From: Sporomusaceae bacterium
GTDB taxonomy: Bacteria > Bacillota > Negativicutes > UBA1444
Assembly (NCBI GenBank): GCA_018434355.1
Contig: JAHDPL010000003.1
Coordinates: forward strand, 62,001-126,000
Direction: 5' to 3'
Length of the DNA: 64,000 nucleotides
Shown: piece by piece, positions 46,838 to 61,917 of the stretch
Numbering within the stretch: the stretch's first letter is position 1
Layout: every line of letters begins with the position of its first letter
Program-made: the position numbers and the translations under genes
The notes under the pieces: model-generated
What the model saw: only the letters and a program-made list of their open reading frames with translations
Databases searched by the model: none
What the model was told of the DNA's origin: nothing

Positions 46838-46881
46838 TTTAATGTCACTACGTAACCGTAGTGGCATTAAAGGGTTTATTT
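46835..46881 (+). terminator. regulated terminator upstream of cobT
   Basis: An 18-base-pair stem, CCCTTTAATG..CACTACG (46835-46852) with its complement at 46857-46874 (one G-U pair), a four-base loop, and TTTATTTTTG. It lies between eutV and the cobT start and shares bases with hairpin P2. Confidence 0.88.
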
Positions 46882-46898
46882 TTGGGGGAGGTCTCAAA

Positions 46899-47954
46899 TT
46901 GGAAAAAATCGTTGCCACAATTCAAAAAATCAAACCGTTAAGCGAATTAGCCATGAAGGAAGCGCAGCTTCGCTTGGATGGTTTGACAAAGCCGGTGGGA
47001 AGTTTGGCTGTACTGGAAAGCATGGCCAGGCAGTTTGCCGGAGTCGTAGGAAACCCCAGGCCGGCGCTGCCGGAAAAAGCCATTGTGTTGATGGCGGCTG
47101 ACCATGGAGTGGCGAGTGAGGGTGTCAGTGCTTTTCCACCGGAAGTGACCGAGCAAATGGTGTACAATTTTGTCCGCGGCGGCGCCGGGATCAATGTGTT
47201 GGCCCGTCATGCCAATGCGCGGCTGATTTTGGTTGATGTTGGCGTGAAAAACCAACTTTCGCCGAGTGTTCCGATTCGACACTGCAAAGTAAAACACGGA
47301 ACAGACAATATGCGTTTGGGTCCGGCCATGAGCAAACAGGAAGCGATTGCTGCGATTGGCGTAGGGATTGACATCGCCAATGAATTGGCGGACGAAGGAA
47401 TCCGCGTGGTAGCGCTGGGTGAAATGGGGATTGGCAATACGACAGCCAGTTCGGCGATTACAAGTGTCTTGACAGGTCGGCCGGTATCGCCGGTAGTTGG
47501 TAAAGGAACCGGGATTGCGCCGGATTTTGTAAATCATAAGATTCAGGTGATTGCCGAGGCGATTGCCTGCAACAACCCCAACCCCAAAGACGCTCTAGAC
47601 GTATTGGCAAAAGTCGGCGGCCTGGAAATTGCCGGATTGGCCGGGGTGGTGCTGGGAGCAGCCTCGCGCGGCATGCTGGTGATGTTGGATGGATTTATTG
47701 CATCGGCTGCTGTGTTGGCGGCTTACCGGATCAGTGTTGCGGTTCGGCCCTATCTGATGGCTTCTCATTTGTCTGAAGAACCTGGGCATGCGGCTATTCT
47801 TGAAGTATTGGGAGTGAAACCCTGTCTTCATTTGAATATGAGATTGGGGGAAGGGACCGGGGCTGCGTTGGGGATGACGCTGCTTGACGCCGCAGTAAAA
47901 ATTATCAATGAAATGGCGACTTTTGAAGAGGCGCAGGTGGCGCCCTCCTGTTAA
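46899..47954 (+). CDS. cobT: nicotinate-nucleotide--dimethylbenzimidazole phosphoribosyltransferase
   Basis: A 351-residue enzyme that activates 5,6-dimethylbenzimidazole to alpha-ribazole phosphate, the lower ligand of cobalamin. VYNFVRGGAGINVLAR, EMGIGNTTASSA (with the conserved nucleotide loop) and the catalytic glutamate in the C-terminal MRLGEGTGAA are all present. The start is TTG 46899 with GGGGGAGG upstream; the frame reaches back to 46842 inside the terminator. It is the first gene of the antiterminated transcript, so it serves cobalamin supply for ethanolamine ammonia-lyase. Confidence 0.95.
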   Translation: MEKIVATIQKIKPLSELAMKEAQLRLDGLTKPVGSLAVLESMARQFAGVVGNPRPALPEKAIVLMAADHGVASEGVSAFPPEVTEQMVYNFVRGGAGINVLARHANARLILVDVGVKNQLSPSVPIRHCKVKHGTDNMRLGPAMSKQEAIAAIGVGIDIANELADEGIRVVALGEMGIGNTTASSAITSVLTGRPVSPVVGKGTGIAPDFVNHKIQVIAEAIACNNPNPKDALDVLAKVGGLEIAGLAGVVLGAASRGMLVMLDGFIASAAVLAAYRISVAVRPYLMASHLSEEPGHAAILEVLGVKPCLHLNMRLGEGTGAALGMTLLDAAVKIINEMATFEEAQVAPSC

Positions 47955-47998
47955 GTTATTGGCAATCAAATTCGAAGAAATGATGGCGGTGAAGCGTG

Positions 47999-48340
47999 AT
48001 GGCAACGGAAAAACAAAGGGTCATTCAGGAATATGTTCCCGGCAAGCAGGTGACAATGGCCCATATCATTCCTAATCCTCAGGGCGATTTGCATGAACGG
48101 CTGGGACTCGACGGCAAAGGGGCGATCGGCATCATGACGATTACTCCCAGCGAAGCGGCGATCATTGCGGCGGATGCCGCAACAAAAGCAGGCAATATTG
48201 AAATCGGCTTTGTCGATCGGTTTACCGGCTCATTGGTAGTTACCGGCGATGTTGCCGATGTGGAGGCTGCAGTTCGTGCGGCCGTCAATACGCTGGTTAG
48301 CGTGCTTGGTTTTACCGCGACGGAAGTGACCCGCAGTTGA
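47999..48340 (+). CDS. eutS: EutS-type microcompartment shell protein
   Basis: A 113-residue circularly permuted BMC-H protein. It starts with the extension [21 protein letters not shown] typical of EutS/PduU, followed by the BMC core [38 protein letters not shown] and a final [15 protein letters not shown]. Quoted parts are consecutive pieces of the fold. EutS makes bent hexamers that help shape the shell. It lies 45 bases after cobT and overlaps eutP by four bases. Confidence 0.92.
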
Positions 48341-48786
48341 AGAACAAAATCTTGTTGATTGGCGGGGTTGGCGCAGGAAAGACGACGTTGAAACAACGGT
48401 TGCTTCAGGAGTCTTTAACATATCGCAAGACCCAGGTAATTGATTTCAAGGGTTTGTTTATCGACTGTCCCGGTGAATACATTCAAATTCCCACCTATTA
48501 CCGGGTGTTGATCGATGCTAGCCATCGGGTGTCGGAAGTGTGGGCTTTGCAGGATGCGACCAACAAACGGTCGCCATATCCGCCGAAATTCGCCAATGTA
48601 TTCAATAAAAAGACTGTAGTGGGCATTGTTACAAAGCTGGACCGCGAGGACGCCGACACATCGGTTGCTGAAAGATATTTGCAGCAGGCAGGATTCGCCG
48701 ACCCTTTGCACATCATTTCCGCCAAAGAAGGGATTGGTTTGGAACCGTTGATTTTGCGTCTGGAAGCGTTGATGAAAAAAGATTGA
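48337..48786 (+). CDS. eutP: EutP/PduV family GTPase-like protein
   Basis: A 149-residue small GTPase-fold protein. P-loop [10 protein letters not shown] at residues 9-18 and FIDCPGEY (DxPG-like switch) are clear, with VTKLDRED as the guanine motif. EutP of Salmonella was reported to act as acetate kinase; PduV associates with the shell. TTG start overlaps the end of eutS. A regulated terminator follows 122 bases on. Confidence 0.9.
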
Positions 48787-48880
48787 GAAGTTTGCTTTTG
48801 CTTGCAGGAATTTTGCTGATTCGCTCGAAATAGGGAAATAGTAGTTTGGTGTTCCTGCTAGATCACCCATTTGTCTTTTC

Positions 48881-48955
48881 TCCGGGAACAATGAAATACG
48901 GGCAACAACGCCCTTTACAACCGCCGGCATTGCCGGGCGGTTGTAAAGGGCGTTT
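48881..48955 (+). ncRNA. second ANTAR-type leader and terminator, upstream of eat
   Basis: The block AACAATGAAATACGGGC (48887-48902 region) matches the one before cobT with a few changes. P2 is GGGC-AACAAC-GCCC (48899-48912). Its 3' arm GCCC begins a 16-base-pair terminator, GCCCTTTACAACCGCC (48909-48924) with its complement at 48935-48950, followed by GTTTCTT. P1 is not a clean hexaloop here: the 5' arm TTTTC is separated from AACAAT by six extra bases. It should allow eat and the following genes to be expressed only with active EutV. Confidence 0.72.
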
Positions 48956-49020
48956 CTTGTGTCTTGCCGCCCGATTTCACGATGAAGATACATCACCAAA
49001 AATAAAGGAGGACTTATTTT

Positions 49021-50391
49021 ATGAGCAATCCGGCAGACACGAACAAGATTCCGGCCGCAAACGGCGCGCCCCATTTGCAGAGAGTTCTCAAACCGATTCA
49101 CCTATGGGCTCTGGCAGTGGGATTGGTTATCTCGGGCAACTACTTCGGCTGGAGTTATGGGTTCGCCGCCGGCGGTCCGATCGGTCTCGCCATCGCCCTG
49201 GTTCCCGTCACCATTTTTTATGTAACCTTTATTCTATCCTATTCGGAATTGGCCACCGCCATTCCCCATGCCGGAGGACCTTCGGCCTACGCACGTCGCG
49301 CGCTCGGAAAATTCTGGGGCTATATGAATGGCGTCAGTTGTCTGATTGAGTTTGTCTTCGCGCCTCCAGCCATCGCCTTGGCAGTTGGTGGATACATCCA
49401 CAACATGATGCCGGCGATCCCCCAAATGCAAGCGACGATAGTTGCCTTCCTGTTCTTTATTTTAGTCAACTACTGGGGCATGAAAACCTCGGCAATGGTC
49501 GAACTGGTGGTCACCGTGGTGGCGCTGGTCGGCCTGGTGATTTACTGGATCTTGGCTGTACCGCACTTTGAAATGTCCCGTTTGATGGCGCAACCGTTGC
49601 TGCCAAACGGATTTGAAGGGGTTATGGCTGCCGTACCCTTTGCCATCTGGTTCTATCTGGCGATCGAGGGCGGCGCTATGGCGGCTGAGGAATGCGTCAA
49701 TCCGCAAAAAGATATTTCCACAGGGTTCCTGACTGGCATGGCGACATTGATGGTCATGGCATTTTTGACCCTGTTTCTGACAGCAGGTATCGCAGACTAT
49801 AAAACCGTCCAGGCGGTTGACTTCCCGCTGCCGATGGCGCTGAGTGAAGCTGGAGTCGGTGCGGTCGGCGTCGCTTTGGTCAACTTTATCGGCTTGTTTG
49901 GCTTGATTGCCTCCTTGCATGGAATTATCGTCGGCTATTCGCGCCAGACTTACGCAATGGCTCGTACCGGATATTTGCCGAAATTCCTGGCCTATGTTCA
50001 TCCCAAACATCATACTCCCGTCTGGGCGCTGATTTTGCCGGGCCTGGTCGGTCTGGGCGCAGCACTGACAGGATTGACAGACATCGTCATTACGATTTCC
50101 GTATTTGGCTCTGTTGCGATGTATCTGGTCAGTTTGGTCAGTTTGTTTGTGCTTCGTTCCAAGGAACCGGACCTCAAGCGGCCATTCAAAGTATGGTATC
50201 CGGTGGTTCCGGCAATCAGCTTTGTGATCGCTCTGTTTTGCTTAGTCAGCTTGTTTATGGCTTCTGCCGAAGCGTTGAAGTGGGTTGCGTTGGTTTACGG
50301 AGTCGCCATTGCCTATTATTTCATCTGGGGCAACAAGAATATCCGGCCGTTTGAAGAGGAGTTCGGCGTGCTGGATGAATTGGATGCATAA
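49021..50391 (+). CDS. eat: ethanolamine permease
   Basis: A 456-residue APC-family transporter with twelve membrane helices. The start LKPIHLWALAVGLVISGNYF and GGPSAYARRALGKFWGYMNG match the Eat-type ethanolamine permeases of actinobacteria and proteobacteria, which replace EutH in many species. AAAGGAGG precedes the ATG. It is the first gene after the second leader. Confidence 0.92.
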   Translation: MSNPADTNKIPAANGAPHLQRVLKPIHLWALAVGLVISGNYFGWSYGFAAGGPIGLAIALVPVTIFYVTFILSYSELATAIPHAGGPSAYARRALGKFWGYMNGVSCLIEFVFAPPAIALAVGGYIHNMMPAIPQMQATIVAFLFFILVNYWGMKTSAMVELVVTVVALVGLVIYWILAVPHFEMSRLMAQPLLPNGFEGVMAAVPFAIWFYLAIEGGAMAAEECVNPQKDISTGFLTGMATLMVMAFLTLFLTAGIADYKTVQAVDFPLPMALSEAGVGAVGVALVNFIGLFGLIASLHGIIVGYSRQTYAMARTGYLPKFLAYVHPKHHTPVWALILPGLVGLGAALTGLTDIVITISVFGSVAMYLVSLVSLFVLRSKEPDLKRPFKVWYPVVPAISFVIALFCLVSLFMASAEALKWVALVYGVAIAYYFIWGNKNIRPFEEEFGVLDELDA

Positions 50392-50452
50392 AATTAACTC
50401 ATACCGAAAGAAGCGCGGTAGAAATATACATTGAGGGAAAGGGGATATCAAA

Positions 50453-50788
50453 ATGTCCAACAAAGATGGCTTGATTGCTCTGGGCATGGTGGAAACAAAA
50501 GGCGTCGTGGGAGCGGTTGAAGCGGCGGATGCCATGGTTAAGGCGGCCAATGTCACGCTGATCGGCAAAGTCAAAGTGGGTGGAGCGCTGGTCACCGTGA
50601 TGGTGCGCGGCGATGTCGGTGCGGTGAAGGCTTCGGTCGATGCCGGAGCGGCGGCAGCCTCCCGAGTGGGAGAGCTGATGAGCTGTCATGTGATTCCTCG
50701 TCCGCATCCTGATCTGGAAGCGATTTTGCCCAAATTGGCGCCGATCGAAGAAAAAGCCGTCAAGGCGGGTAAAGGCGACGCAAAGTAA
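50453..50788 (+). CDS. eutM: BMC-H shell protein (EutM/PduA-type), copy 1
   Basis: A 111-residue hexamer-forming shell protein. The BMC domain (residues 5-88) has [20 protein letters not shown] and [12 protein letters not shown]; the pore loop is VKVGGAL (about 40-46). A charged tail ([13 protein letters not shown]) follows. AAAGGGG lies before the ATG. A second, diverged copy is at 56723. Confidence 0.92.
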
Positions 50789-50791
50789 CCG

Positions 50792-52249
50792 ATGGGCAAG
50801 GAACTGACACTGACCAGCGTAGGCATTGATATTGGCACGACGACAACCCAGTTGGTGTTGTCGCGTCTGACGCTGGTTAATGTCATGCCGGGTTCACAGG
50901 TGCCACGGATTGAAATCTCTCACAAAAGCGTAATTTACATGGGAACTGTTCATTTCACGCCGTTTCTTGATCGTCGGCATGTCGATGGCCCGACGCTGCG
51001 CAAGCTGATTGCGCGGGAATATGAACTGGCTGGCATCGGTCCCGCCGATATCGATACAGGTGCGATCATCATCACCGGCGAGGCGGCCAAGAAAGAAAAC
51101 GCAGCGGAGATTATCCATTCCCTTGCAGATTACGCCGGTGATTTTGTCGTGGCGACCGCCGGCCCCGATCTGGAAAGCCTGATTGCCGGTAAAGGATCCG
51201 GCGCAGAGGAACTGTCGAAACGCTTTCGTAGCCGAATCGCCAATATCGATATTGGCGGCGGAACATCGAATATCGCCCTTTTTGATAAAGGCGTCTGTAT
51301 TGGAACTGCCTGCGTGAATGTCGGCGGGCGCCTGTTTGAGGTCGATGCACTGACCCAGCGGCTTTCCTACGTAACCGCTCCGGCGCAAAATGTTGCGGAT
51401 TGTCTGGCGAAAAAGTGGGGACAGGATTTGTTTCCGGCCGCAACACCTGAAGCCGAACTGGCAGGGATAAATGCCTGCCTGGACCGGATGGTCGAGTCGG
51501 TGGACCGGATGCTATTTCGAGATTTGCTTGCAGCAGTTGATCAATCCCTGGTGATGAGTGACCGTCTTCCTGCGGAGCCGCCGCAAGCAGTCGTTTTTTC
51601 CGGCGGAGTGGCCCGCTATATCTACCAACCGGGGTTGCAATCGTGGTGGATTCATGGCGATGTAGGCCCGTTGTTGGCAGAAGCGTTCCGACGAGGTCGG
51701 GCGTTTCAAAACCTGAAGGTTTATCAGGGGGCGGAAACCCTGCACGCCACGGTGCTTGGCGCCGGTGCGCACACGGTGAATGTTTCCGGCTCGACAGTGA
51801 CGGTTGATAAAAATGTTCTGCCACTACGCAATTTGCCGGCAGTGTATCCGAATCCCAAAACGGACGGAGAATGGAGCTGGGTTGAACCGGCCGGACACTT
51901 TCAAGACGGACTTTACCGAACAGTGGCGCTAATCGTTCCGGTGCTCGGCGATACGGATTTTTCCACGATTACGGATGTGGCCCGTCAGCTGGCGGCGGAG
52001 TTCGGACAAATTGCGGGGTCGCCCAAAGTTGTGATTGCGCAGCAAGATATCGCTAAGGTATTGGGGCAAAGTTTGCAAAGAATTGCTCCCGAGTATGAAC
52101 TGGTATGTCTGGATGGAGTTGAACTAAAATTGGGCGACTTCATCGATATCGCCAAACCGCTCCCGTATGAAGAAGCCGTGCCGGTCATTGTGAAGACTCT
52201 GGTATTTTCCGGCGGAGTCGGACCAGGCAGCGCGAAGGGTAGTGAATAA
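50792..52249 (+). CDS. eutA: ethanolamine ammonia-lyase reactivating factor
   Basis: A 485-residue chaperone-type ATPase that exchanges damaged cobalamin out of EutBC. The N-terminal phosphate loop SVGIDIGTTTTQLVLSRL and a second IANIDIGGGTSNIALFD mark the actin/Hsp70-like fold of EutA. It starts four bases after the shell gene and ends two bases before eutB, so the genes are coupled. Confidence 0.93.
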   Translation: MGKELTLTSVGIDIGTTTTQLVLSRLTLVNVMPGSQVPRIEISHKSVIYMGTVHFTPFLDRRHVDGPTLRKLIAREYELAGIGPADIDTGAIIITGEAAKKENAAEIIHSLADYAGDFVVATAGPDLESLIAGKGSGAEELSKRFRSRIANIDIGGGTSNIALFDKGVCIGTACVNVGGRLFEVDALTQRLSYVTAPAQNVADCLAKKWGQDLFPAATPEAELAGINACLDRMVESVDRMLFRDLLAAVDQSLVMSDRLPAEPPQAVVFSGGVARYIYQPGLQSWWIHGDVGPLLAEAFRRGRAFQNLKVYQGAETLHATVLGAGAHTVNVSGSTVTVDKNVLPLRNLPAVYPNPKTDGEWSWVEPAGHFQDGLYRTVALIVPVLGDTDFSTITDVARQLAAEFGQIAGSPKVVIAQQDIAKVLGQSLQRIAPEYELVCLDGVELKLGDFIDIAKPLPYEEAVPVIVKTLVFSGGVGPGSAKGSE

Positions 52250-52251
52250 GA

Positions 52252-53616
52252 GTGAAGCTAAAAACAAGATTGTTTGGGCAAACCTTTGCTTTTAAAAACA
52301 TCAAGGAAGTTTTGGCCAAGGCCAATGAAATCAAATCAGGCGACATTCTGGCCGGAATTGGCGCGGAAAATGCCGCCGAGCGGATTGCCGCCAAACGGGT
52401 GTTGTCGCAACTGACGCTGGAAGATTTGCGCAACAATCCGGTCGTGCCGTTGGAAACCGATGAAGTGTCGCGAATTATTGACGGCGATGTGAATGAAGCG
52501 ATCTACCGTTCGGTAAAGAACTGGTCGGTGGCAGAGCTGCGCGAATTCATCCTGAAAACGGAAACGACCAATGACGAACTGCAGCGATTGAGTCGCGGCC
52601 TGACCGCTGAGATGGTTGCTGCCACGACCAAGTTGATGAGCAATCTCGATTTGGTGCTGGGCGCAAGTAAAATCAAGAATATTGCCCACTGCAATACGAT
52701 GATCGGTCAGCCGGGCTGTCTCGCCGCCCGTTTGCAACCCAACCATCCGACCGACAATGTCGAAGGGATCTTGGCCAGTCTGCGGGAGGGTTTGTCCTAT
52801 GGGGTGGGTGATGCGGTAATCGGACTGAACCCGGTCGACGATACGCTGCCGGCAGTCATTCGCAGTCTGGAAACTCTGTATGATTTTGTCGAGGAATGGA
52901 AGATTCCCACCCAGATCTGTGTTCTCGCGCATATCACAACCCAGCTCAAAGCGTTGCAGAAAGGCGCTCCGGTGCATCTGCTATTCCAATCGGTGGCTGG
53001 CACCGAAGCCGGAAACACGGCATTCGGCATCAGCGGTGCCATCCTGCAGGAGGCTTATGAAGCCGGGTTGAAGCAAGGGCGGGCCACCGGTCCCAACATT
53101 ATGTATTTTGAAACAGGACAGGGTTCGGAATTATCGGCGGAAGCCCATAACGGGGCGGACCAACTGACGCTGGAAGCCCGATGCTACGGATTCGCCAGGC
53201 ACTACAAACCCTATCTGGTCAATACGGTGGTCGGCTTCATCGGGCCGGAGTATCTCTACGATACCCGCCAGGTAACCCGGGCCGGTCTGGAAGATCATTT
53301 CATGGGGAAACTGACCGGCCTGCCGATGGGTGTTGACGCCTGCTACACCAATCACATGAAAGCGGACCAGAATGATATTGAAAATCTGGCCACACTGCTG
53401 ACAGCTGCCGGATGTACCTATTTCATGGGCATTCCGATGGGCGATGATGTGATGTTGAACTATCAATGCACCAGCTTCCATGATATCCCGACACTGCGAA
53501 GCATATTCAACCTTCGTCCGCTACCGGCATTTGAAGCCTGGCTGGAATGCATGGGGATCATGGAAAACGGCAAGCTGACCGCTCGGGCCGGCGACGCCAC
53601 GATCTTTACGAGGTAA
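52252..53616 (+). CDS. eutB: ethanolamine ammonia-lyase large subunit
   Basis: A 454-residue TIM-barrel catalytic subunit that binds ethanolamine and, with EutC, adenosylcobalamin, giving acetaldehyde and ammonia. The sequence is typical over its length: NHPTDNVEGILASLREG, ETGQGSELSAEAHNGADQ with substrate-binding residues, and MGIPMGDDVMLNYQCTSFHD. GTG start two bases after eutA. Confidence 0.96.
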   Translation: MKLKTRLFGQTFAFKNIKEVLAKANEIKSGDILAGIGAENAAERIAAKRVLSQLTLEDLRNNPVVPLETDEVSRIIDGDVNEAIYRSVKNWSVAELREFILKTETTNDELQRLSRGLTAEMVAATTKLMSNLDLVLGASKIKNIAHCNTMIGQPGCLAARLQPNHPTDNVEGILASLREGLSYGVGDAVIGLNPVDDTLPAVIRSLETLYDFVEEWKIPTQICVLAHITTQLKALQKGAPVHLLFQSVAGTEAGNTAFGISGAILQEAYEAGLKQGRATGPNIMYFETGQGSELSAEAHNGADQLTLEARCYGFARHYKPYLVNTVVGFIGPEYLYDTRQVTRAGLEDHFMGKLTGLPMGVDACYTNHMKADQNDIENLATLLTAAGCTYFMGIPMGDDVMLNYQCTSFHDIPTLRSIFNLRPLPAFEAWLECMGIMENGKLTARAGDATIFTR

Positions 53617-53629
53617 GGGGGCAACAGCC

Positions 53630-54508
53630 ATGGGCCTGGAAATGGATATCCGCTCGATAGTGGAGCAAGTGCTACTGGAAATGAAGCATGGAACGCAGGG
53701 CAACTCCGGGGCGAATTTGCCGGCGCAAACTGTTGTGAGCGCCAGTGAAGAGGACGCGCTGACCGATCTGGCCAAGGTCGATCTGCAACGTTATTTGCAA
53801 GTGCCGCATCCGGTGAATGCAGAGTTGTACCAGGAAATGAAACTGGCTACGCCGGCCCGTATCGGCGTCTGGCGCTCGGGTTCGCGCCCGCTGACCGATA
53901 CCTGGCTGCGGTTCCGCGCCGACCATGCGGTTGCACAGGATTCGGTGCTCGGCGACGTGCCGGAAGATTTTCCTGCCAAATACAACATGGTTTGTGTAAA
54001 AACCATGTGTAGCAGCAAGGACGAATATCTGACCCGGCCCGATCTGGGGCGGAAGCTCGACGATGAAAATCTGGCCATTTTGCGGCAGCATTGCAAAAAA
54101 GGGCCGAAACTTCAAATCATCGTTGCCGATGGACTGTCGAGCAAAGCGGTTGAAGCAAACATCCCAAACCTCCTGCCGGCGATGATTCAGGGACTGGAAG
54201 GTATGGGGATTCAGCTGGGGACGACGATTTTTGTCAAATACGCCCGAGTGGCGATAATGGACGTGATTGGCGAAGAATTGAAACCGGAGGCGGCGATCGT
54301 ATTGATCGGCGAGCGACCGGGACTAGGGACGGCCGAGAGCATGAGCGCCTACATGGGATACAATCCGCGGGTGGGCATGGTGGAAAGCGAACGAACCGTC
54401 GTCAGCAACATTCATAAAGGAGGTACGCCGGCGGCCGAAGCCGGTGCACATCTTGCGAGCCTGCTCAAGCGAATCCTCGACGCCCGGGCATCCGGCGTCA
54501 ATATGTGA
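53630..54508 (+). CDS. eutC: ethanolamine ammonia-lyase small subunit
   Basis: A 292-residue subunit that binds the base-off face of adenosylcobalamin. The conserved ATPARIGVWRSGSRPLT, FRADHAVAQDSV and RPGLGTAESMSAYMGY are present. Residues 1-22 form an amphipathic helix (DIRSIVEQVLLEMKHG) before a flexible linker, the usual look of an encapsulation peptide. GGGGG precedes the ATG. Confidence 0.96.
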   Translation: MGLEMDIRSIVEQVLLEMKHGTQGNSGANLPAQTVVSASEEDALTDLAKVDLQRYLQVPHPVNAELYQEMKLATPARIGVWRSGSRPLTDTWLRFRADHAVAQDSVLGDVPEDFPAKYNMVCVKTMCSSKDEYLTRPDLGRKLDDENLAILRQHCKKGPKLQIIVADGLSSKAVEANIPNLLPAMIQGLEGMGIQLGTTIFVKYARVAIMDVIGEELKPEAAIVLIGERPGLGTAESMSAYMGYNPRVGMVESERTVVSNIHKGGTPAAEAGAHLASLLKRILDARASGVNM

Positions 54509-54531
54509 CCACAGGGGAGGAGGATAAGATC

Positions 54532-55179
54532 ATGATTGAACCGATTAAACCGAAAGTGTTGGCAGTACGGATGATTCCCAACGTTGCCTCTGATTTGATC
54601 GAGCAGCTGAATTTGCAGCCGGGTCAGCGATCGATCGGAATGATTACCTGCACGATCGATGACGCGACCTATACATCGTTAGATGAAGCGACGAAAAAAG
54701 CGGAAGTGGAAGTCGTGTATGCAAAGAGCTTTTATGCCGGCTCCGCCCACGCATCCGGCCCCCGTTCCGGCGAGATCCTAGGGATACTGGCCGGACCGAC
54801 GCCGGCTGAAGTAAGGGCAGGAATTGACGCCTGTATCGATTATCTGGAAACAGAAGCGTTTTTTTACACCTGTGATGGTGGCGCCACAGCTTGGTATCCA
54901 CACACGATATCCCGTACCGGCAGCTATCTGTCGAAACTAGCCGGTATTCCCGAAGGCGATCCGCTGGCCTACCTGATTGCGCCGCCGCTGGAAGCGGTGT
55001 ATGGCATCGATGCCGCCTTAAAAGCGGCAGAAGTGTCGATGAAGGTATTTTATGGCCCGCCGACGGAAACCAACTTTGGCGGCGCGTTGTTGACTGGCAG
55101 CCAGAGCGCCTGCAGGGCGGCATGTGAAGCCTTTCAACGGGCGGTCGTCGAAGTGGCGACCACGGCGCTCAAACTCTGA
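54532..55179 (+). CDS. eutL: EutL-type tandem-BMC shell protein
   Basis: A 215-residue trimer-forming shell protein with two fused BMC domains (about 1-100 and 110-215) that forms a large, gated central pore. RSIGMITCTIDDATYTSLDEATKKA and FFYTCDGGATAWYPHTISRTGSYLS are characteristic. I chose ATG 54532 (GGGAGGAGG upstream); the frame reaches to 54505, overlapping eutC. Confidence 0.95.
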   Translation: MIEPIKPKVLAVRMIPNVASDLIEQLNLQPGQRSIGMITCTIDDATYTSLDEATKKAEVEVVYAKSFYAGSAHASGPRSGEILGILAGPTPAEVRAGIDACIDYLETEAFFYTCDGGATAWYPHTISRTGSYLSKLAGIPEGDPLAYLIAPPLEAVYGIDAALKAAEVSMKVFYGPPTETNFGGALLTGSQSACRAACEAFQRAVVEVATTALKL

Positions 55180-55200
55180 TCGGAAAGCGAGGCGGCATTT

Positions 55201-56679
55201 ATGGAGCTGGATCGCGATCTGTCTTCGATTCAGGAGACGCGCAATCTGCTGAAAGCAGCCCGAAAAGCGCAGGATGCACTGAAATCGTTTTCCCAGTCGC
55301 AGGTCGATGCAATCATCGATGCGCTCAGGGCGGCTGGCGAAGCGGAAGCTTGCCGGCTTGGCGCCATGGCGGTGCAGGAAACCGGGATGGGCAAATACGA
55401 GGACAAGTGTTTCAAAAACTATTTCGCGGCTCACTATGTGCATGAGTTTATCAAAGACATGAAAACCGTAGGCATCGTGAAAAAGGATGCAGCGACCAAG
55501 ACCTGGGAAATCGCTGAGCCGGTTGGCGTGATTGCCGGGATTGTTCCGACGACCAATCCGACTTCCACGGTGATTTATAAATCAATGGTTGCACTGAAAT
55601 CGCGCAATGCTATTGTGTTTTCGCCGCATCCGTCGGCAGTCCGTTGTACGGCGGAAGCGGCCCGGGTCATGCATCAGGCGGCAGTTGCTGTCGGAGCGCC
55701 CGAAGGATCGATCGGTTGCCTGACCACAGTATCGCTGGAAGCAACCCAGGAGCTGATGAAGAATCCGCTGACCTCGATTATTCTGGCTACCGGCGGCAGC
55801 GCTCTAGTCAGGGCGGCCTACAGCAGCGGCAAACCGGCTCTTGGCGTTGGACCGGGCAATGTACCGGCCTTTGTTGAACGAAGCGCCGATCTTGCCAAGG
55901 CGGCGGAATTTATCATTGCCGGAAAATCCTTTGATAACGGGACGATTTGCGCTTCTGAACAGGCGATTGTCGCCGAGAGTTGCATCGTCAAAGAGCTGAA
56001 AGAACAACTGGTCAGATACGGCGCGCATTTCCTCGAGTCGGGAGAAGTGGAGAAAGTGTCCCGAGTCGTCATGCTGCCGAATAATGGCGTGAACCCGAAA
56101 GTGGTCGGTAAAGACCCGGCCTTCATCGGCAAGCTGGCTGGAATCAACGTGCCGACGCATGCAAAAATTCTGGTTGCGCCACTGGAGGGCGTTGGGCCGC
56201 AGTGGCCGTTGTCCTATGAAAAACTGTGCACCGTTCTGGGTTTTTATCAGGTCAAGGATTGGCATGAAGGCTGCGAACGCTGCATTCAGTTGTTGGAACT
56301 GGGCGGTATTGGTCATAGTCTGGCGATTCATTCCAATGATGAAAAAATCATTGAAGAATTTGCCCTGAAAAAGCCAATCTTCCGGATTTTGGTCAATACG
56401 CCGGCTGCCCTTGGCGGCGTGGGGGCAACAACATCCCTGGCGCCTTCATTTACATTAGGTTGCGGTACTTGGGGCGGTTCAAGCGTTTCCGAGAATGTAA
56501 CCCCGATGCACTTGATCAATACGAAACGAGTGGCCTGGCATATGGGAATGCCGGCAGGACCGGATGTCAAGCCGATTAGCGCGGCAGCCGCCGCCGCACC
56601 GGTTCAACCCGGAGTTGACGCAAAACTGGTGCAACAAGTTGTCGAACAGGTGCTGAAAGCAATCAAAGCGGGTCAATAA
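55201..56679 (+). CDS. eutE: acetaldehyde dehydrogenase (CoA-acylating)
   Basis: A 492-residue enzyme that converts acetaldehyde, CoA and NAD+ to acetyl-CoA and NADH inside the compartment. The catalytic cysteine is in NGTICASEQAI near residue 250; GGSALVRAAYSSGKPALG is the NAD-binding region. It lacks an N-terminal targeting helix, as found on EutE/PduP of enterobacteria, and instead ends in an Ala/Pro-rich linker and the helix KLVQQVVEQVLKAIKAG, an encapsulation-peptide-like C-terminus. Starts 21 bases after eutL. Confidence 0.95.
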   Translation: MELDRDLSSIQETRNLLKAARKAQDALKSFSQSQVDAIIDALRAAGEAEACRLGAMAVQETGMGKYEDKCFKNYFAAHYVHEFIKDMKTVGIVKKDAATKTWEIAEPVGVIAGIVPTTNPTSTVIYKSMVALKSRNAIVFSPHPSAVRCTAEAARVMHQAAVAVGAPEGSIGCLTTVSLEATQELMKNPLTSIILATGGSALVRAAYSSGKPALGVGPGNVPAFVERSADLAKAAEFIIAGKSFDNGTICASEQAIVAESCIVKELKEQLVRYGAHFLESGEVEKVSRVVMLPNNGVNPKVVGKDPAFIGKLAGINVPTHAKILVAPLEGVGPQWPLSYEKLCTVLGFYQVKDWHEGCERCIQLLELGGIGHSLAIHSNDEKIIEEFALKKPIFRILVNTPAALGGVGATTSLAPSFTLGCGTWGGSSVSENVTPMHLINTKRVAWHMGMPAGPDVKPISAAAAAAPVQPGVDAKLVQQVVEQVLKAIKAGQ

Positions 56680-56722
56680 AGAATAACGACACTGACAAAC
56701 AGTATTGAAGGAGGATATGAAC

Positions 56723-57034
56723 ATGGTGGCAGAAAGAAGTGTAATCGCATTGGGAATGATTGAAACAAAGGGGCTGATCCCGGCCATTGAAGCTGCGGAC
56801 CAGATGCTCAAGGCGGCCAATGTTACGCTATCCGGCAAAGAACATGTCTCAGGCGGCTATGTGGCTGTGATGGTACGCGGCGATGTCGGCGCGGTGAAGG
56901 CAGCAGTTGATGCGGGGGGCGCGGCGGCCCAACGAGTCGGCGAATTGCTTAGCGTGCACGTAATTCCCCGGCCGCATGGGGATGTCGAATATATCCTGCC
57001 GGAAGGCGACAACAAGGATCGCGGCGCGAAATAA
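56723..57034 (+). CDS. BMC-H shell protein (EutM/PduA-type), copy 2
   Basis: A 103-residue hexameric shell protein with [20 protein letters not shown] and [12 protein letters not shown]. The pore loop reads EHVSGGY, unlike VKVGGAL of copy 1, and the tail is shorter and acidic. ATG 56723 has AAGGAGG eight bases upstream; another ATG at 56717 is too near. It is three bases upstream of the fusion gene. Confidence 0.92.
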
Positions 57035-57037
57035 GCG

Positions 57038-58333
57038 ATGCTGATCAACGAAGCCGAACTCCGCAGCCAGTGGCATAAGACAAAAACAGATGTGATTACG
57101 GTGCCCCGCGGCAGCGTTTTGACGCCGTCGGCGCGTGACTTTCTGCGGGGCAACGGGATTCGTGTAGTCGTTGAGGGCGAGGGTGTGCAGGACTTGGATC
57201 GGCGACCGATGTCCACGGCGAAGAACCCTGCGCCGGTTGCCGCAACTGCCGGTAAACCAGAGCACCAGACCCACCTGCATGGCAGTCAGCTTGTCGACAA
57301 GACGCACCCGGTCATCGCCTGGCGCGGTCAGCTGGACCAGTTCGATTGCGCGGTGGTGGAATCGCAGGTACAGCTGGTTCGCTATGGTCATGATGCATTG
57401 GCGGCGCAGCTGGAAGAAATCCTGCGGTTTGCCCAGCGGATCATGGCGGCAGAAGTGCGGGAGACTCCGTTTGAATTCAAGACGTTGCTTGGCTGGACGC
57501 CAGAGCAGATCCGCGAGATGTCCCATCACCCGGATCGTTATTTTGGCGTGACCCATTCGACAATGTCTTATCTGGATGGTCCGGTAGTGGCCCGGCTGAA
57601 CATTTTGCGCGCCAAGGTTCGCGAGGTCGAGTTGTCTGCCAATCGGGCCTTTATCGATTCTCAGGGCAATTGCCGACGCACAGACATCGTGCAGGCGCTC
57701 AACCGCTTATCTAGTGTATTGTATATTCTGGTTTGCCGGACCCGCAGCGAAACTGTTCAGGAAAAGAAACTGCCGATCGGGGTTTCCAACCGTCATGTGC
57801 ATTTGTCAGCAGCGGACTTGACCAGTTTGTTCGGCAGCGGACACAGTTTGTCGAAGTGGAAAGACCTTTCCCAACCGGGACAGTTCGCCGCCGTAGAAAC
57901 GGTCAAAATTGCCGGTCCGAAAGGTTCCATTGACAATGTGCGGATTCTGGGTCCAGTGCGCAAACAGACGCAGGTAGAAATCAGCGCCACCGACTCCTTC
58001 CAACTGGGGGTGAAACCGGTCGTGCGCGATTCCGGGCAGCTGGAAGGCAGTGAAGGACTTCGCCTGATTGGCCCGAATGGCTCTGTTGACCTGGCAAGCG
58101 GCGTAATTGTGGCGGCGCGTCATATCCATATGCATCCGGATCAAGCCAAACAGTGGAATCTTCAGGATGGGCAGAAGGTCCGGGTCCGGGTTGACAGCGC
58201 CCGGCCGGTATACTTTGAAGACGTGCTGGTTCGGGTCAATCCGCAGTATCAGGGCGAAATGCATCTGGATACTGATGAGGCCAACGCGGCGATGGTTGAT
58301 AAAAATAGTCTGGCCGTGATTGTGGGAGGATAA
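57038..58333 (+). CDS. EutT-like cobalamin adenosyltransferase fused to PduL phosphotransacylase
   Basis: A 431-residue two-enzyme fusion. Residues 1-237 resemble EutT: an N-terminal module with LTPSARDFL (28-36), then THLHGSQLVDKTHPVIAWRG and ALNRLSSVLYIL (220-231), which would make adenosylcobalamin from ATP and cob(I)alamin. The HX11CCX2C metal motif of Salmonella EutT is missing. Residues 244-431 are a full PduL: SNRHVHLS (250-257), EISATDSFQLG, ARHIHMHPDQA (360-370), with His/Glu zinc ligands, which exchanges CoA for phosphate on acetyl-CoA. There is no stop codon or frame change between them. Starts four bases after the shell gene and ends two bases before the next gene. Confidence 0.9.
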   Translation: MLINEAELRSQWHKTKTDVITVPRGSVLTPSARDFLRGNGIRVVVEGEGVQDLDRRPMSTAKNPAPVAATAGKPEHQTHLHGSQLVDKTHPVIAWRGQLDQFDCAVVESQVQLVRYGHDALAAQLEEILRFAQRIMAAEVRETPFEFKTLLGWTPEQIREMSHHPDRYFGVTHSTMSYLDGPVVARLNILRAKVREVELSANRAFIDSQGNCRRTDIVQALNRLSSVLYILVCRTRSETVQEKKLPIGVSNRHVHLSAADLTSLFGSGHSLSKWKDLSQPGQFAAVETVKIAGPKGSIDNVRILGPVRKQTQVEISATDSFQLGVKPVVRDSGQLEGSEGLRLIGPNGSVDLASGVIVAARHIHMHPDQAKQWNLQDGQKVRVRVDSARPVYFEDVLVRVNPQYQGEMHLDTDEANAAMVDKNSLAVIVGG

Positions 58334-58335
58334 GG

Positions 58336-59112
58336 ATGGACGAGAATATCTTGCGGGAAGTGATAGCCCGTATCATGGCGGACCCCCGGCTGCAACCTTT
58401 ATTGGCGGCTGCTGCCGCCAAATCATCCCTGCAAAAACCAAACTGCCTGGTTGTGATCGAAAATGAGGCAGGACTGCGCAAGTTGCCGGAAATACAAAAA
58501 CAGTGGGGCAACTGTGCGGAACTGCAGCTATGCCTGGCAGGTCCGATTAGCGTTCCTTCGGCGAGTTTGCCGCAAGTTTCCTGTGAAAATGCGACCGCAC
58601 GCACTGACTGGAGCAAGATCCTGTTGCCGGTGTGTACGGCGCAACAACTGGGCGAAGTTGTACTCGGATTTCGCCGCGACAAGGTCACGGATCTGATCGC
58701 TTGGGCAATCTTGCAGGGGATTCCGGTGGAGATTGGCTATGTCGACTATGGTTTCAGCGAGAAAACGCCAGTAGCTTATCGGCAACTTTTAGAAGGATAT
58801 GTGGAGCAGGCTGCCGCCTATGGGGTTACTATTAGTAAGGGGTCGTTTTGTTCAGATCCACTGCCGGCGCCTCCGATGCAATCAGCCCCGGAGCTGCCCT
58901 GGAGTTGTGGCGAGCCTGTGAATGCACCGGAGCCGGAAACACGAGCCGCGATTCGTTATGAAAAAAATCTCATGACGGAAAAAGAAGCGATCCTGTTGCC
59001 GGAATATGCGGTGCTCATGTTGAACAAAGCGGTGGTGCTTACGCCTTCGGCGATCGACACGTTGAAACGGCAAAAAGTGCAGGTTTATAAGGAAGGGGTG
59101 CGATTCCTGTGA
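58336..59112 (+). CDS. BMC-operon protein of unknown function with C-terminal LTPSA module
   Basis: A 258-residue protein. It starts with a short amphipathic helix (ENILREVIARIMAD) like an encapsulation peptide, has a central alpha/beta region (about 35-190) with VVIENEAGL and AWAILQGIPVEIGYVDYGFS, and ends in AVVLTPSAIDTLKRQKVQVY. I recall an uncharacterised family seen only in Firmicute-type ethanolamine operons (the TIGR02536 type) that this may belong to, but cannot confirm it. It overlaps eutN by four bases. Confidence 0.7.
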   Translation: MDENILREVIARIMADPRLQPLLAAAAAKSSLQKPNCLVVIENEAGLRKLPEIQKQWGNCAELQLCLAGPISVPSASLPQVSCENATARTDWSKILLPVCTAQQLGEVVLGFRRDKVTDLIAWAILQGIPVEIGYVDYGFSEKTPVAYRQLLEGYVEQAAAYGVTISKGSFCSDPLPAPPMQSAPELPWSCGEPVNAPEPETRAAIRYEKNLMTEKEAILLPEYAVLMLNKAVVLTPSAIDTLKRQKVQVYKEGVRFL

Positions 59113-59402
59113 TTCTGGCGCGTGTGATCGGAAGCGTCTGGTCGACCCGCAAGGAAGAATCGTTGCGAGGTCTGAAGTTTTTAATCGTACAGCCGGTAGT
59201 TGTCCAATATTCGGTCGAGGGAAACAGCAAGCTGGAAGATTACGGCCCGACCCTGGTGGCGGCTGATAAAATAGGCGCCGGTGAAACGGAAATCGTGATG
59301 ATTGCCAGTGGTTCGTCTGCCCGACAGAGTCTGCCGGACACCCATGTTCCCGTCGATGCGATGGTCGTGGGAATTATCGACAAAGAAACGTTTGAAGCCT
59401 GA
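59109..59402 (+). CDS. eutN: EutN/CcmL-type pentameric vertex protein
   Basis: A 97-residue BMC-P protein that caps the vertices of the shell. LARVIGSVWSTRKEESLRGLKF and IVQPV give the N-terminal part of the fold, and VDAMVVGIIDKETF the C-terminal strand. GTG start overlapping the previous stop codon; the next gene starts ten bases on. Confidence 0.94.
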   Translation: MILARVIGSVWSTRKEESLRGLKFLIVQPVVVQYSVEGNSKLEDYGPTLVAADKIGAGETEIVMIASGSSARQSLPDTHVPVDAMVVGIIDKETFEA

Positions 59403-59412
59403 TGAGGTTGAC

Positions 59413-60744
59413 ATGATGAGCAACATCAGTGAGAAAGTGAAAGCGGCAGGGGTCGTGGGGGCTGGCGGGGCCGGTTTTCCCACCCATGTCAAGCTGGAAG
59501 CCAAAGCGGATATATTTCTTGTCAATGCGGCGGAATGCGAACCGATGCTGCGTACCGACCAACAATTGATGGCGGTGCAACCAGACCTTTTATTGCGGGG
59601 GCTGGAACTGGGAATGCAGTCAACTGGCGCCAGCGAAGGAATCATTGCGCTGAAACCGAAATATAAGGACGCGATTGCGGCTTTGCAGCCGATTCTGCCT
59701 GCCAATGTTCGGATTGAAATGCTGCGGGACGTTTACCCGGCAGGCGATGAAGTGATTACACTTTGGCTGACGACTGGACGGCGGGTACCGCCAGGCGGTT
59801 TGCCGCTGCATGTCGGTGCGGTGGTCAACAATGTGCAGACCTTGATTAATGTGGCGCGCGCCGTGGACGGACTGCCTGTTACGACCCGGACATTCACAGT
59901 CACCGGCGCAGTGAAAAGCCCGTTAACCGTGACCGTGCCGATAGGAATGCCGCTGTCGGAAGTATTGGCGCTGGCCGGGGGTCCGACTGTTGATCCGGTG
60001 GCGTTCATCGATGGCGGACCGCTGATGGGTAAGTTGCTGACCGACTTGGAACAACCGGTGACCAAAACGACTGGCGGATTGATTGCTCTGCCGGCAGATC
60101 ACCTGCTGATCAAACGAAAAAAGCAGACGATGGAATCAGTGCTGCGGATTGCCAAGACAGTCTGCGAACAGTGTTGCTATTGCACCGAACTCTGCCCGCG
60201 CCATATTATCGGGCATGAATTGCCGCCACATCTGATTATTCGCGCCGCCAACCACAATTATCTCGGCAGTCCCTCGGTGGTTACCAGCGCGCTGACCTGC
60301 TCCGAGTGCGGCGTCTGTGAGGCTTATGCCTGCCCGGTCGGGATTTCGCCGATGCGGGTCAATATTGCATTAAAGGACAAACTGCGAAAAGCAGGCGTGC
60401 GCTACGAGGGAGGTCTGGGCAAAGCAGACCCGATGGCCGAGAACAGGTTGGTACCAACCTCGCGGATGGTAACGCGGCTCAATCTCGCTGCCTGGTATCC
60501 GCCGGAAGCTCCGTTGCAACAAGACACTTGCGCGGCGTCCCGGGTGCAGATACCGCTTAAGCAACACATTGGCGCGCCGGCTGCGCCTTTGGTGAAAGCC
60601 GGAGACAAGGTGAGCCGGGGGCAGCTGATTGCTGAAATGCCAAGCGGCGCGCTGGGAGCAAATGTGCATGCGAGCATTGACGGGACGGTGGAAGAAGTGT
60701 CGTCTTGTGCGATAACGATAGGAAATAGAGGTGCCGGTCGATGA
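59413..60744 (+). CDS. pduS: PduS-type SLBB iron-sulfur flavoprotein (cobalamin reductase)
   Basis: A 443-residue RnfC-related electron carrier. The N-terminal GVVGAGGAGFPTHVKL and AAECEPML are FMN/NADH-binding parts, SLBB is in the middle, and two 4Fe-4S sites follow: CEQCCYCTELCP (Cys251 on) and CSECGVCEAYACP (Cys296 on). The C-terminus has a biotinyl-lipoyl-like sandwich (KAGDKVSRGQLIAEMPS). PduS reduces cob(II)alamin for the adenosyltransferase. ATG 59413 or 59416 is the start with GAGG upstream. Confidence 0.92.
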   Translation: MMSNISEKVKAAGVVGAGGAGFPTHVKLEAKADIFLVNAAECEPMLRTDQQLMAVQPDLLLRGLELGMQSTGASEGIIALKPKYKDAIAALQPILPANVRIEMLRDVYPAGDEVITLWLTTGRRVPPGGLPLHVGAVVNNVQTLINVARAVDGLPVTTRTFTVTGAVKSPLTVTVPIGMPLSEVLALAGGPTVDPVAFIDGGPLMGKLLTDLEQPVTKTTGGLIALPADHLLIKRKKQTMESVLRIAKTVCEQCCYCTELCPRHIIGHELPPHLIIRAANHNYLGSPSVVTSALTCSECGVCEAYACPVGISPMRVNIALKDKLRKAGVRYEGGLGKADPMAENRLVPTSRMVTRLNLAAWYPPEAPLQQDTCAASRVQIPLKQHIGAPAAPLVKAGDKVSRGQLIAEMPSGALGANVHASIDGTVEEVSSCAITIGNRGAGR

Positions 60745-61295
60745 TTCACGCGATTGGAATGGTTGAGTTCACGAGCATTGCCAAGGGAATTGATGCGGCG
60801 GATATCATGTCAAAGACCGCCGAAGTGGAAATCCTGGTGATGAAAACGCTCTGTCCCGGTAAATTCATGGTGCTGGTCAGCGGCGATGTTTCCTCCGTGC
60901 AACAGGCGGTATCGGCCGGAGCGGAGCTGGGCGCCGATACGTTGGTCGATCAGTTTGTGATTCCCAATGTGCATCATTCAATCCTGCCGGCGATCGGTGG
61001 CGGCAACGACATCCCGCTACCGGAAATTCGGGCGATCGGCGTGATTGAAACCTATAGTGTGGCATCAGCGATCGAAGCGACCGATGCGGCTGTCAAGGCG
61101 GCGAACGTCGAACCGCTAAGGCTGCATCTGGCGTTTGGCATCGGCGGCAAAAGTTATTGTGTGCTCACGGGCGAAGTCGCGTCTGTTAAGGCTGCTGTCG
61201 AAGTCGGCAGCGAATTGGCGGGGGAAAAAGGACTGCTTGTTCATCAACTGGTGATTCCACGGCCGCATAAGCAGGTTTTGGAAGGGTTGCTCTAA
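60741..61295 (+). CDS. pduT: PduT-type tandem-BMC shell protein with [4Fe-4S] pore
   Basis: A 184-residue double BMC protein (about 1-90 and 97-184). Cys38 in MKTLCPGKF is at the position of the cysteine by which three PduT subunits hold one [4Fe-4S] cluster in the central pore. It is thought to pass electrons across the shell to PduS. It overlaps the end of pduS by four bases, supporting the partnership. Confidence 0.92.
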   Translation: MIHAIGMVEFTSIAKGIDAADIMSKTAEVEILVMKTLCPGKFMVLVSGDVSSVQQAVSAGAELGADTLVDQFVIPNVHHSILPAIGGGNDIPLPEIRAIGVIETYSVASAIEATDAAVKAANVEPLRLHLAFGIGGKSYCVLTGEVASVKAAVEVGSELAGEKGLLVHQLVIPRPHKQVLEGLL

Positions 61296-61317
61296 ACGGG
61301 AAGAGAGGGGAATGATC

Positions 61318-61917
61318 ATGGCAAAACTGATTTCGGCAGCGGAACTGCGCGAACTGGCCGGGGACAGCAAACAGGTTGCGGTGCCGACTGGTGCGATATT
61401 AACTCCGTCAGCCTATGATCTGGCCAAAGAAATGAACCTGACAATCATCCGACAGTCAGAAGCCGAACAGCCGGCAGACAAGGCAAGATCTGGCCAAAAA
61501 CCTTGCGTCAGCGAAGTGCAGGAGATTGTTCGCCGTGTGGTGGACAAAATGACCAAGCCGGCCTGCGCCAATCCCCGCCTGACTCATGTCAAAGCGGCAG
61601 GAATCGTACTGGAGCCGTTTGATCAGGCGCCGCCCGGCCAGAAGATCAAACTGAAAGATGTCATCACTTCTCGGGAAGCGAACTTGGGCGCTGGATTTAT
61701 GGAGTTTGACCGCAGCGAGCTCCCCTGGCACTTGACCTATGATGAAGTGGATTATGTCGTGGAAGGAACATTTACGCTGCAGTCAGGCGGGACTACCTAC
61801 ACCTGCAAAGCCGGCGATGTACTGTACATTCCCAAAGACACCAAGGTGGTGTTCGGGTCCCCTGCGCAGGCAAGGGTCTTTTATGTGACCTATCCTGCCA
61901 ATTGGGCGGATCTTTAA
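61318..61917 (+). CDS. eutQ: EutQ-type cupin protein (acetate kinase)
   Basis: A 199-residue protein with an N-terminal module carrying AVPTGAILTPSAYDLA (LTPSA at 28-32), a helix VSEVQEIVRRVVDKM (64-78) of encapsulation-peptide type, and a C-terminal cupin (about 95-199: PWHLTYDEVDYVVEG, CKAGDVLYIPKDTKV). EutQ of Salmonella has acetate kinase activity and is needed under anaerobic conditions. Start ATG 61318 (or 61312), behind GAGAGGGG. Confidence 0.9.
   Translation: MAKLISAAELRELAGDSKQVAVPTGAILTPSAYDLAKEMNLTIIRQSEAEQPADKARSGQKPCVSEVQEIVRRVVDKMTKPACANPRLTHVKAAGIVLEPFDQAPPGQKIKLKDVITSREANLGAGFMEFDRSELPWHLTYDEVDYVVEGTFTLQSGGTTYTCKAGDVLYIPKDTKVVFGSPAQARVFYVTYPANWADL

Follow-up and report, generated by a model that had tools for sequence, protein, structure and literature searches.

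The phosphotransacylase PduL is known from a study in which its histidine motifs and the arginine of the phosphate site were discussed (PMC4784909). In that study, rPduL was composed of six subunits with the encapsulation peptide and was a dimer without it. For Listeria EutD, an encapsulation peptide has been predicted (PMC8547011). For the adenosyltransferase EutT, a 2018 report (Costa & Escalante-Semerena, as cited in PMC9426561, ref. 14) described a metal-independent class from Listeria and other Firmicutes. Salmonella EutQ is an encapsulated protein: its residues 9-41 (H1/H2) contact the shell, its H3/H4 serve as the binding site for the EutC and EutE encapsulation peptides, and residues 1-99 suffice to target GFP to the compartment (PMC12487888). 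Furthermore, luminal ATP made by EutQ has been proposed to serve EutA and EutT (PMC12487888, PMC5821096).

In this study, we analyzed a protein in which EutT and PduL are joined. It is encoded in a stretch of 64,000 nucleotides from a Sporomusaceae bacterium; this whole stretch is called the window. An earlier note on this DNA, which knew of no characterised example, had proposed the fusion, and our own literature search, within searchable papers, likewise found no description of an EutT-PduL fusion.

Results

EutT and PduL are encoded in one open frame

The EutT-PduL fusion is real: an EutT-type adenosyltransferase is followed by a complete PduL in one open frame. As the earlier note had claimed, the 431-aa ORF is uninterrupted, and both domain families are matched by Pfam and NCBIfam models. 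The gene and its parts are as follows.

57038..58333, + strand, eutT-pduL fusion gene: single ATG-to-TAA frame of 431 aa; Pfam and NCBIfam matches; 24 fused homologues
57044..57184, + strand, N-terminal 47-residue module (residues 3-49): homology to H1/H2 at the N-terminus of EutQ from profile searches and profile-profile comparison; high pLDDT
57200..57262, + strand, disordered linker (residues 55-75): pLDDT < 50 at residues 55-65; most length-variable stretch among homologues
57263..57751, + strand, EutT adenosyltransferase core (residues 76-238): Pfam; Foldseek to PduO-type enzymes; residue mapping
57752..57769, + strand, EutT/PduL junction (residues 239-244): predicted structure; no encapsulation peptide
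57770..58330, + strand, PduL phosphotransacylase (residues 245-431): PTAC 258 bits; 5cuo_A TM 0.96; invariant residues

Residues 77-232 match Pfam Cob_adeno_trans with 53.9 bits (cut-off 24). The NCBIfam EutT model NF011595 matches residues 3-234 with 120.9 bits, which is below the curated equivalog cut-off of 226; this cut-off was built on enterobacterial EutT, and all other Firmicutes EutT matches found fall below it too. By profile-profile alignment of EutT with PduO-type enzymes (97.0%, E 9e-11; numbering via phmmer against L. reuteri PduO), D100, F169, R191, R195 and N222 correspond to PduO-type D35, F112, R128, R132 and N156; among these positions are those altered in the D35N, F112 and R132K variant structures found by Foldseek. 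Across an alignment of 22 fused and 35 separate EutT proteins, D100, R191, R195 and N222 never vary.

The Cys-rich CCxxC metal motif, which marks the enterobacterial Fe(II)-dependent subclass of EutT and is present in E. coli EutT (CCELC), is absent from the fusion protein. The earlier note had pointed out this absence correctly. However, it is not a special feature of the fusion protein: the motif is missing in all 106 Firmicutes EutT relatives examined. Loss of the motif and metal independence of Firmicutes-type EutT are thus already known and are not new here.

In the PduL half, residues 246-420 match Pfam PTAC/PduL with 258 bits (cut-off 25) over profile positions 1-175 of 176, and the NCBIfam PduL model NF011652 matches residues 245-428 with 266 bits (cut-off 209). 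H253, H255, R308, E314, H362, H364 and H409 are the same in every one of 22 fused and 25 separate PduL proteins. The claim that PduL is complete with both histidine motifs is therefore borne out: the PTAC match is nearly full length and the histidines are intact. The seven invariant positions cover the histidine motifs and the arginine of the phosphate site (PMC4784909); the exact match of individual residues to zinc ligands is presumed. A degenerate active site, considered for either half, was rejected because all 22 aligned fused proteins keep the catalytic residues unchanged.

The AlphaFold2 model, made with an 82-row alignment, has a mean pLDDT of 93.2 and a pTM of 0.66; the two domains are confident and their mutual orientation is uncertain. 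The last predicted helix of EutT (215-240) is continuous and leads directly to the first PduL strand (243-250), which leaves next to no linker. Most of the Desulfosporosinus homologues have a charged linker of about 10-30 residues between the halves. Foldseek superposes the PduL half on 5cuo_A (TM 0.96, rmsd 1.1 Å) and the EutT half on PduO-type enzymes (TM about 0.6-0.7).

The N-terminal module is homologous to the N-terminus of EutQ

The first ~47 residues, with the pattern '...vpkGsiLTPsArdflre.gI.v...', form a predicted module with helices at residues 5-15 and 30-38 and pLDDT of about 94-96 up to residue 40. When a profile of the module was compared with the 855 frames of the window, only two others matched, namely the N-terminus of EutQ (61339-61419) and the C-terminus of the adjacent orf258 (59005-59097). 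E. coli EutT and EutQ also match the profile (domain E 2e-12 and 6e-5, respectively). Direct comparison of EutT and EutQ N-termini by hhalign gave 96.9% (E 2e-10), and the negative controls gave 1.6% and 7.4%. Proteins of the TIGR02536 family carry the same module at the C-terminus. Several stand-alone PduL proteins also have it at the C-terminus (L072:8665-9621, L119:8735-9670, L093 and L005:1480-2340), which is a second way of joining PduL to the module.

Most stand-alone PduL/EutD proteins in the set begin with an amphipathic peptide of the encapsulation type right before the PduL domain (for example, Listeria MNNELITSLIEEVTRRALLE); exceptions are few and include L015, L019 and L023. No encapsulation peptide precedes PduL in the fused proteins. 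The 431-aa protein is not amphipathic at either terminus, whereas EutC, EutE and orf258 of the same operon do have amphipathic ends. The earlier note had suggested that a single targeting event delivers both activities to the lumen. This idea is plausible although the usual peptide is absent; the candidate signal is the EutQ-like module, which the earlier note had missed. We infer that this module may be a docking module that replaced the PduL encapsulation peptide in the fused clade.

The fusion gene lies in a eut operon

The operon features referred to below are as follows.

46842..61917, + strand, EUT operon body around the fusion gene: Pfam and NCBIfam matches; identical gene set and nearly unchanged order in fused loci
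58336..59112, + strand, orf258, directly 3' of the fusion gene: encapsulation-peptide-like N-terminus; EutQ-like module at the C-terminus
61312..61917, + strand, eutQ, acetate kinase-type cupin: Pfam EutQ; EutQ-like module at the N-terminus

The genes in the operon body are, in order, cobT, eutS, eutP, permease, BMC-H, eutA, eutB, eutC, eutL, eutE, eutM, eutT-pduL, orf258, eutN, pduS (pduS/RnfC-like), pduT and eutQ. A histidine kinase and an ANTAR regulator (eutW and eutV) also belong to the eut locus; the regulator, the permease and some eut gene names were assigned by reading the sequence. The neighbours and a near-identical gene order are kept across the fused eut loci. Between positions 40000 and 64000, which include the fusion gene, no Rfam family reached the gathering threshold in a search for known riboswitches.

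The product of orf258 has no Pfam or NCBIfam match; a homologue (L049:2383) matches TIGR02536 weakly with 22 bits. In related loci, orf258 always lies directly 3' of the fusion gene. Because orf258 combines a peptide-like N-terminus with a C-terminal module of the shell type, it may be an adaptor.

Genome-wide profile matches placed no second EutT/PduO or PduL gene in the window: only the fusion gene lies inside it. This agrees with the earlier statement that the operon has no stand-alone eutT, pduO, eutD or pduL. The conclusion drawn from it, that both steps depend on this protein, holds within the operon but not at the level of the genome, which encodes three more PduL proteins, one PduO-type and two CobA/BtuR-type adenosyltransferases, and three Pta/Ptb proteins. 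One of these PduL genes lies in a microcompartment locus of the glycyl-radical type and two lie in surroundings other than microcompartment loci. The former locus, the second of this genome (L155, G000:C36:86000-102000), is apparently of the glycyl-radical-enzyme type and has its own PduL and aldehyde dehydrogenase.

The fusion recurs in Sporomusa and Desulfosporosinus

The earlier note had proposed to look for the same architecture in other genomes. We found 24 further fused proteins in 15 genomes (25 proteins in 16 genomes including that of the window), and every one of these homologues sits in a eut microcompartment operon. A survey with the EutT half, in which one genome was used for each of 84,980 species, gave 80 loci. 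The two halves are fused in 24 of the 80 (L046-L070 except L053), and the hosts are Sporomusa malonica (2), S. acidovorans (2), a Selenomonadales MAG, Desulfosporosinus species and uncultured relatives, and a Bacillota MAG (2). The fused proteins from Sporomusa and Desulfosporosinus are 55-65% identical and the position of the junction is invariant. In one fused locus (L070), the frame is broken inside the EutT part. EutT is separate in 55 loci (L071-L125), for example in Listeria, Paenibacillus, Brevibacillus, Clostridium and Oscillospiraceae. Of these hosts, Listeria, Paenibacillus and Clostridium are relatives at a greater distance.

Desulfosporosinus fructosivorans, S. malonica and S. acidovorans have two fused copies apiece. 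Genomes with two eut loci, each with its own EutT-PduL, were observed in both Sporomusa and Desulfosporosinus (L046/L051, L047/L048, L049/L050, L062/L069 and L063/L066).

In 380 genomes of the same class, full-length matches to the EutT profile were found solely in frames of 427-451 residues, and all of these are fused. Among 398 sampled genomes of the phylum, 35 have an EutT match, and the window's own protein is the sole fusion. The best matches of a plasmid tblastn search were separate eutT and eutD genes only. A further candidate (L146; a 559-residue frame with EutT at 300-549) was rejected because its extra frame overlaps eutE. Short divergent EutT-like proteins of 223-226 aa ('MKFITEMELRDLY...') with weak matches to the EutT model were seen in three loci of the same class (L028, L029 and L035).

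Origin of the fusion

One explanation of the fusion is neutral: adjacent eutT and pduL genes, co-transcribed and translationally coupled, lost the intervening stop codon, the enzymes are unchanged and their linkage has no special role. The arrangement in unfused loci fits this explanation, since PduL/eutD lies directly downstream of eutT on the same strand at a short distance in 43 of the 55, and in six of these 43 (for example, Listeria L100 and L102) the two genes are in the same frame with a single stop codon between them. In addition, eutT adjoins eutD in E. coli, and two relatives have EutT without PduL. Against it, the fusion has been kept across Sporomusa and Desulfosporosinus at the identity given above with an invariant junction, and loss of the encapsulation peptide alters targeting unless it is compensated.

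The PduL tree also speaks against the neutral explanation. The fused PduL halves form one clade (SH-aLRT 95), which is nested in a group with Negativicutes PduL, including the stand-alone copies from the genome of the window, and not with EutD adjacent to eutT. However, a constraint grouping fused PduL with eutT-adjacent EutD was not rejected (p-AU 0.24), so the neighbouring eutD, joined by simple loss of a stop codon, may also have been the fusion partner. We regard the neutral explanation as unlikely.

In the EutT tree, the fused proteins and two unfused proteins form one clade with a support of 100. The unfused members, from a Peptococcaceae MAG (L141/L053/L160) and from L154/L159, are both without PduL. 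A single strict clade of fused EutT is absent from the best tree owing to these two members and was not rejected (p-AU 0.22). Two histories are both possible: the fusion arose once and one or two lineages lost it, or it took place only after the unfused lineages had branched off. Because EutT without PduL occurs within the fused clade, some lineages either can do without the fusion or have lost it. The operon of the Peptococcaceae MAG (L053/L160) is otherwise the same, with EutT alone and no PduL near.

Discussion

Judging from homology, both for the activities and for docking, the fusion protein is probably a shell-docked, luminal bifunctional enzyme of the ethanolamine microcompartment. The EutT part would re-adenosylate cob(I)alamin with ATP, with no bound metal, and supply AdoCbl to ethanolamine ammonia-lyase (EutBC/EutA). 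The PduL part would convert acetyl-CoA made by EutE, together with phosphate, to acetyl-phosphate and CoA, and thereby close a private CoA pool. Acetyl-phosphate could then be used by EutQ, the acetate kinase of the same operon, to make ATP available to EutT. In this scheme, the fused activities would be the two ends of one loop that leads from acetyl-CoA through acetyl-phosphate and ATP to AdoCbl. The protein would be recruited by its N-terminal module, by analogy with the shell contact of EutQ H1/H2, and not by the lost PduL peptide. Should EutT form trimers, as PduO-type enzymes do, and PduL dimers, the chain would self-assemble into a hexamer or a larger core, and EutT could in this way stand in for the lost peptide in oligomerisation.

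It is also conceivable that EutT serves mainly as a scaffold for targeting and oligomerisation of PduL, and that AdoCbl comes from the PduO-type and CobA/BtuR-type enzymes of the cell. The one PduO-type and two CobA/BtuR-type genes described above would allow this, and EutT does carry the EutQ-like module on which PduL, having lost its own peptide, depends; yet the catalytic residues of the adenosyltransferase are invariant in 22 of 22 fused proteins aligned, which a mere scaffold would not need, and we consider this explanation very improbable. A sequencing or assembly artefact hiding a stop or frameshift near base 57,760, about which the earlier note had warned, can be set aside, since the junction lies at the same position in 24 independent homologues from 15 other genomes and no evidence supporting an artefact was found.

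The putative bifunctional, shell-docked enzyme touches on two open questions, namely how metabolosomes maintain and recycle B12 and CoA in their interior and by what route proteins that lack an encapsulation peptide get inside. In this protein, evolution has physically linked the two recycling activities; the usual targeting peptide is gone, and a homologue of the shell-contacting region of EutQ is left. Three ideas thus become testable: that EutT works in the lumen, that a second targeting code resides in the EutQ-like module, and that the loop from acetyl-CoA to AdoCbl is spatially ordered. Engineered compartments are another possible use, with the module as a tag. A broader proposal, about which we have more doubt than confidence, is that the ~47-residue module might be a general and hitherto unrecognised shell-docking module of ethanolamine-type microcompartments, present in EutT, EutQ, TIGR02536-type proteins and the C-termini of some PduL proteins; in the fused clade it would replace the PduL peptide, and EutT-PduL would form an oligomeric hub, anchored to the shell, in which EutQ links CoA recycling to the ATP-dependent re-adenosylation of B12.

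EutT-PduL is a new architecture made from two known enzymes; it is real, conserved in Negativicutes and Desulfosporosinus, a selected variant judging from its recurrence in 24 related proteins, and undescribed in searchable papers. Among the closest known systems is the eutT and eutD pair of Listeria and other Firmicutes (about 39-40% identity), which shares the EutT fold, the N-terminal module, the lack of CCxxC and the position of eutT upstream of pduL/eutD. In that system, EutT and EutD are two proteins and EutD has its own encapsulation peptide, whereas here they are one chain. The L. reuteri PduO-type adenosyltransferase (PDB 3ci1/3ci4) shares the helical bundle fold and the equivalents of catalytic D35, R128, R132 and N156. 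However, its N-terminal ATP loop 'TKTGDxGxT' is missing in the fusion protein, which has the EutT stretch 'KPEHxTHL' in its place and an additional N-terminal EutQ-like module. The PduL half shares 49% identity, the superposition described above (TM 0.96, rmsd 1.1 Å) and all zinc- and phosphate-site residues with R. palustris PduL (PDB 5cuo/5cup, PMC4784909). Free microcompartment PduL begins with an encapsulation peptide that also controls oligomerisation; in the fusion protein, EutT occupies that place. Finally, the first ~47 residues are homologous to H1/H2 of EutQ, the N-terminal part of which is a shell and cargo adaptor (PMC12487888). EutQ continues with H3/H4, which bind encapsulation peptides, and a cupin, whereas the fusion protein continues with EutT and PduL.
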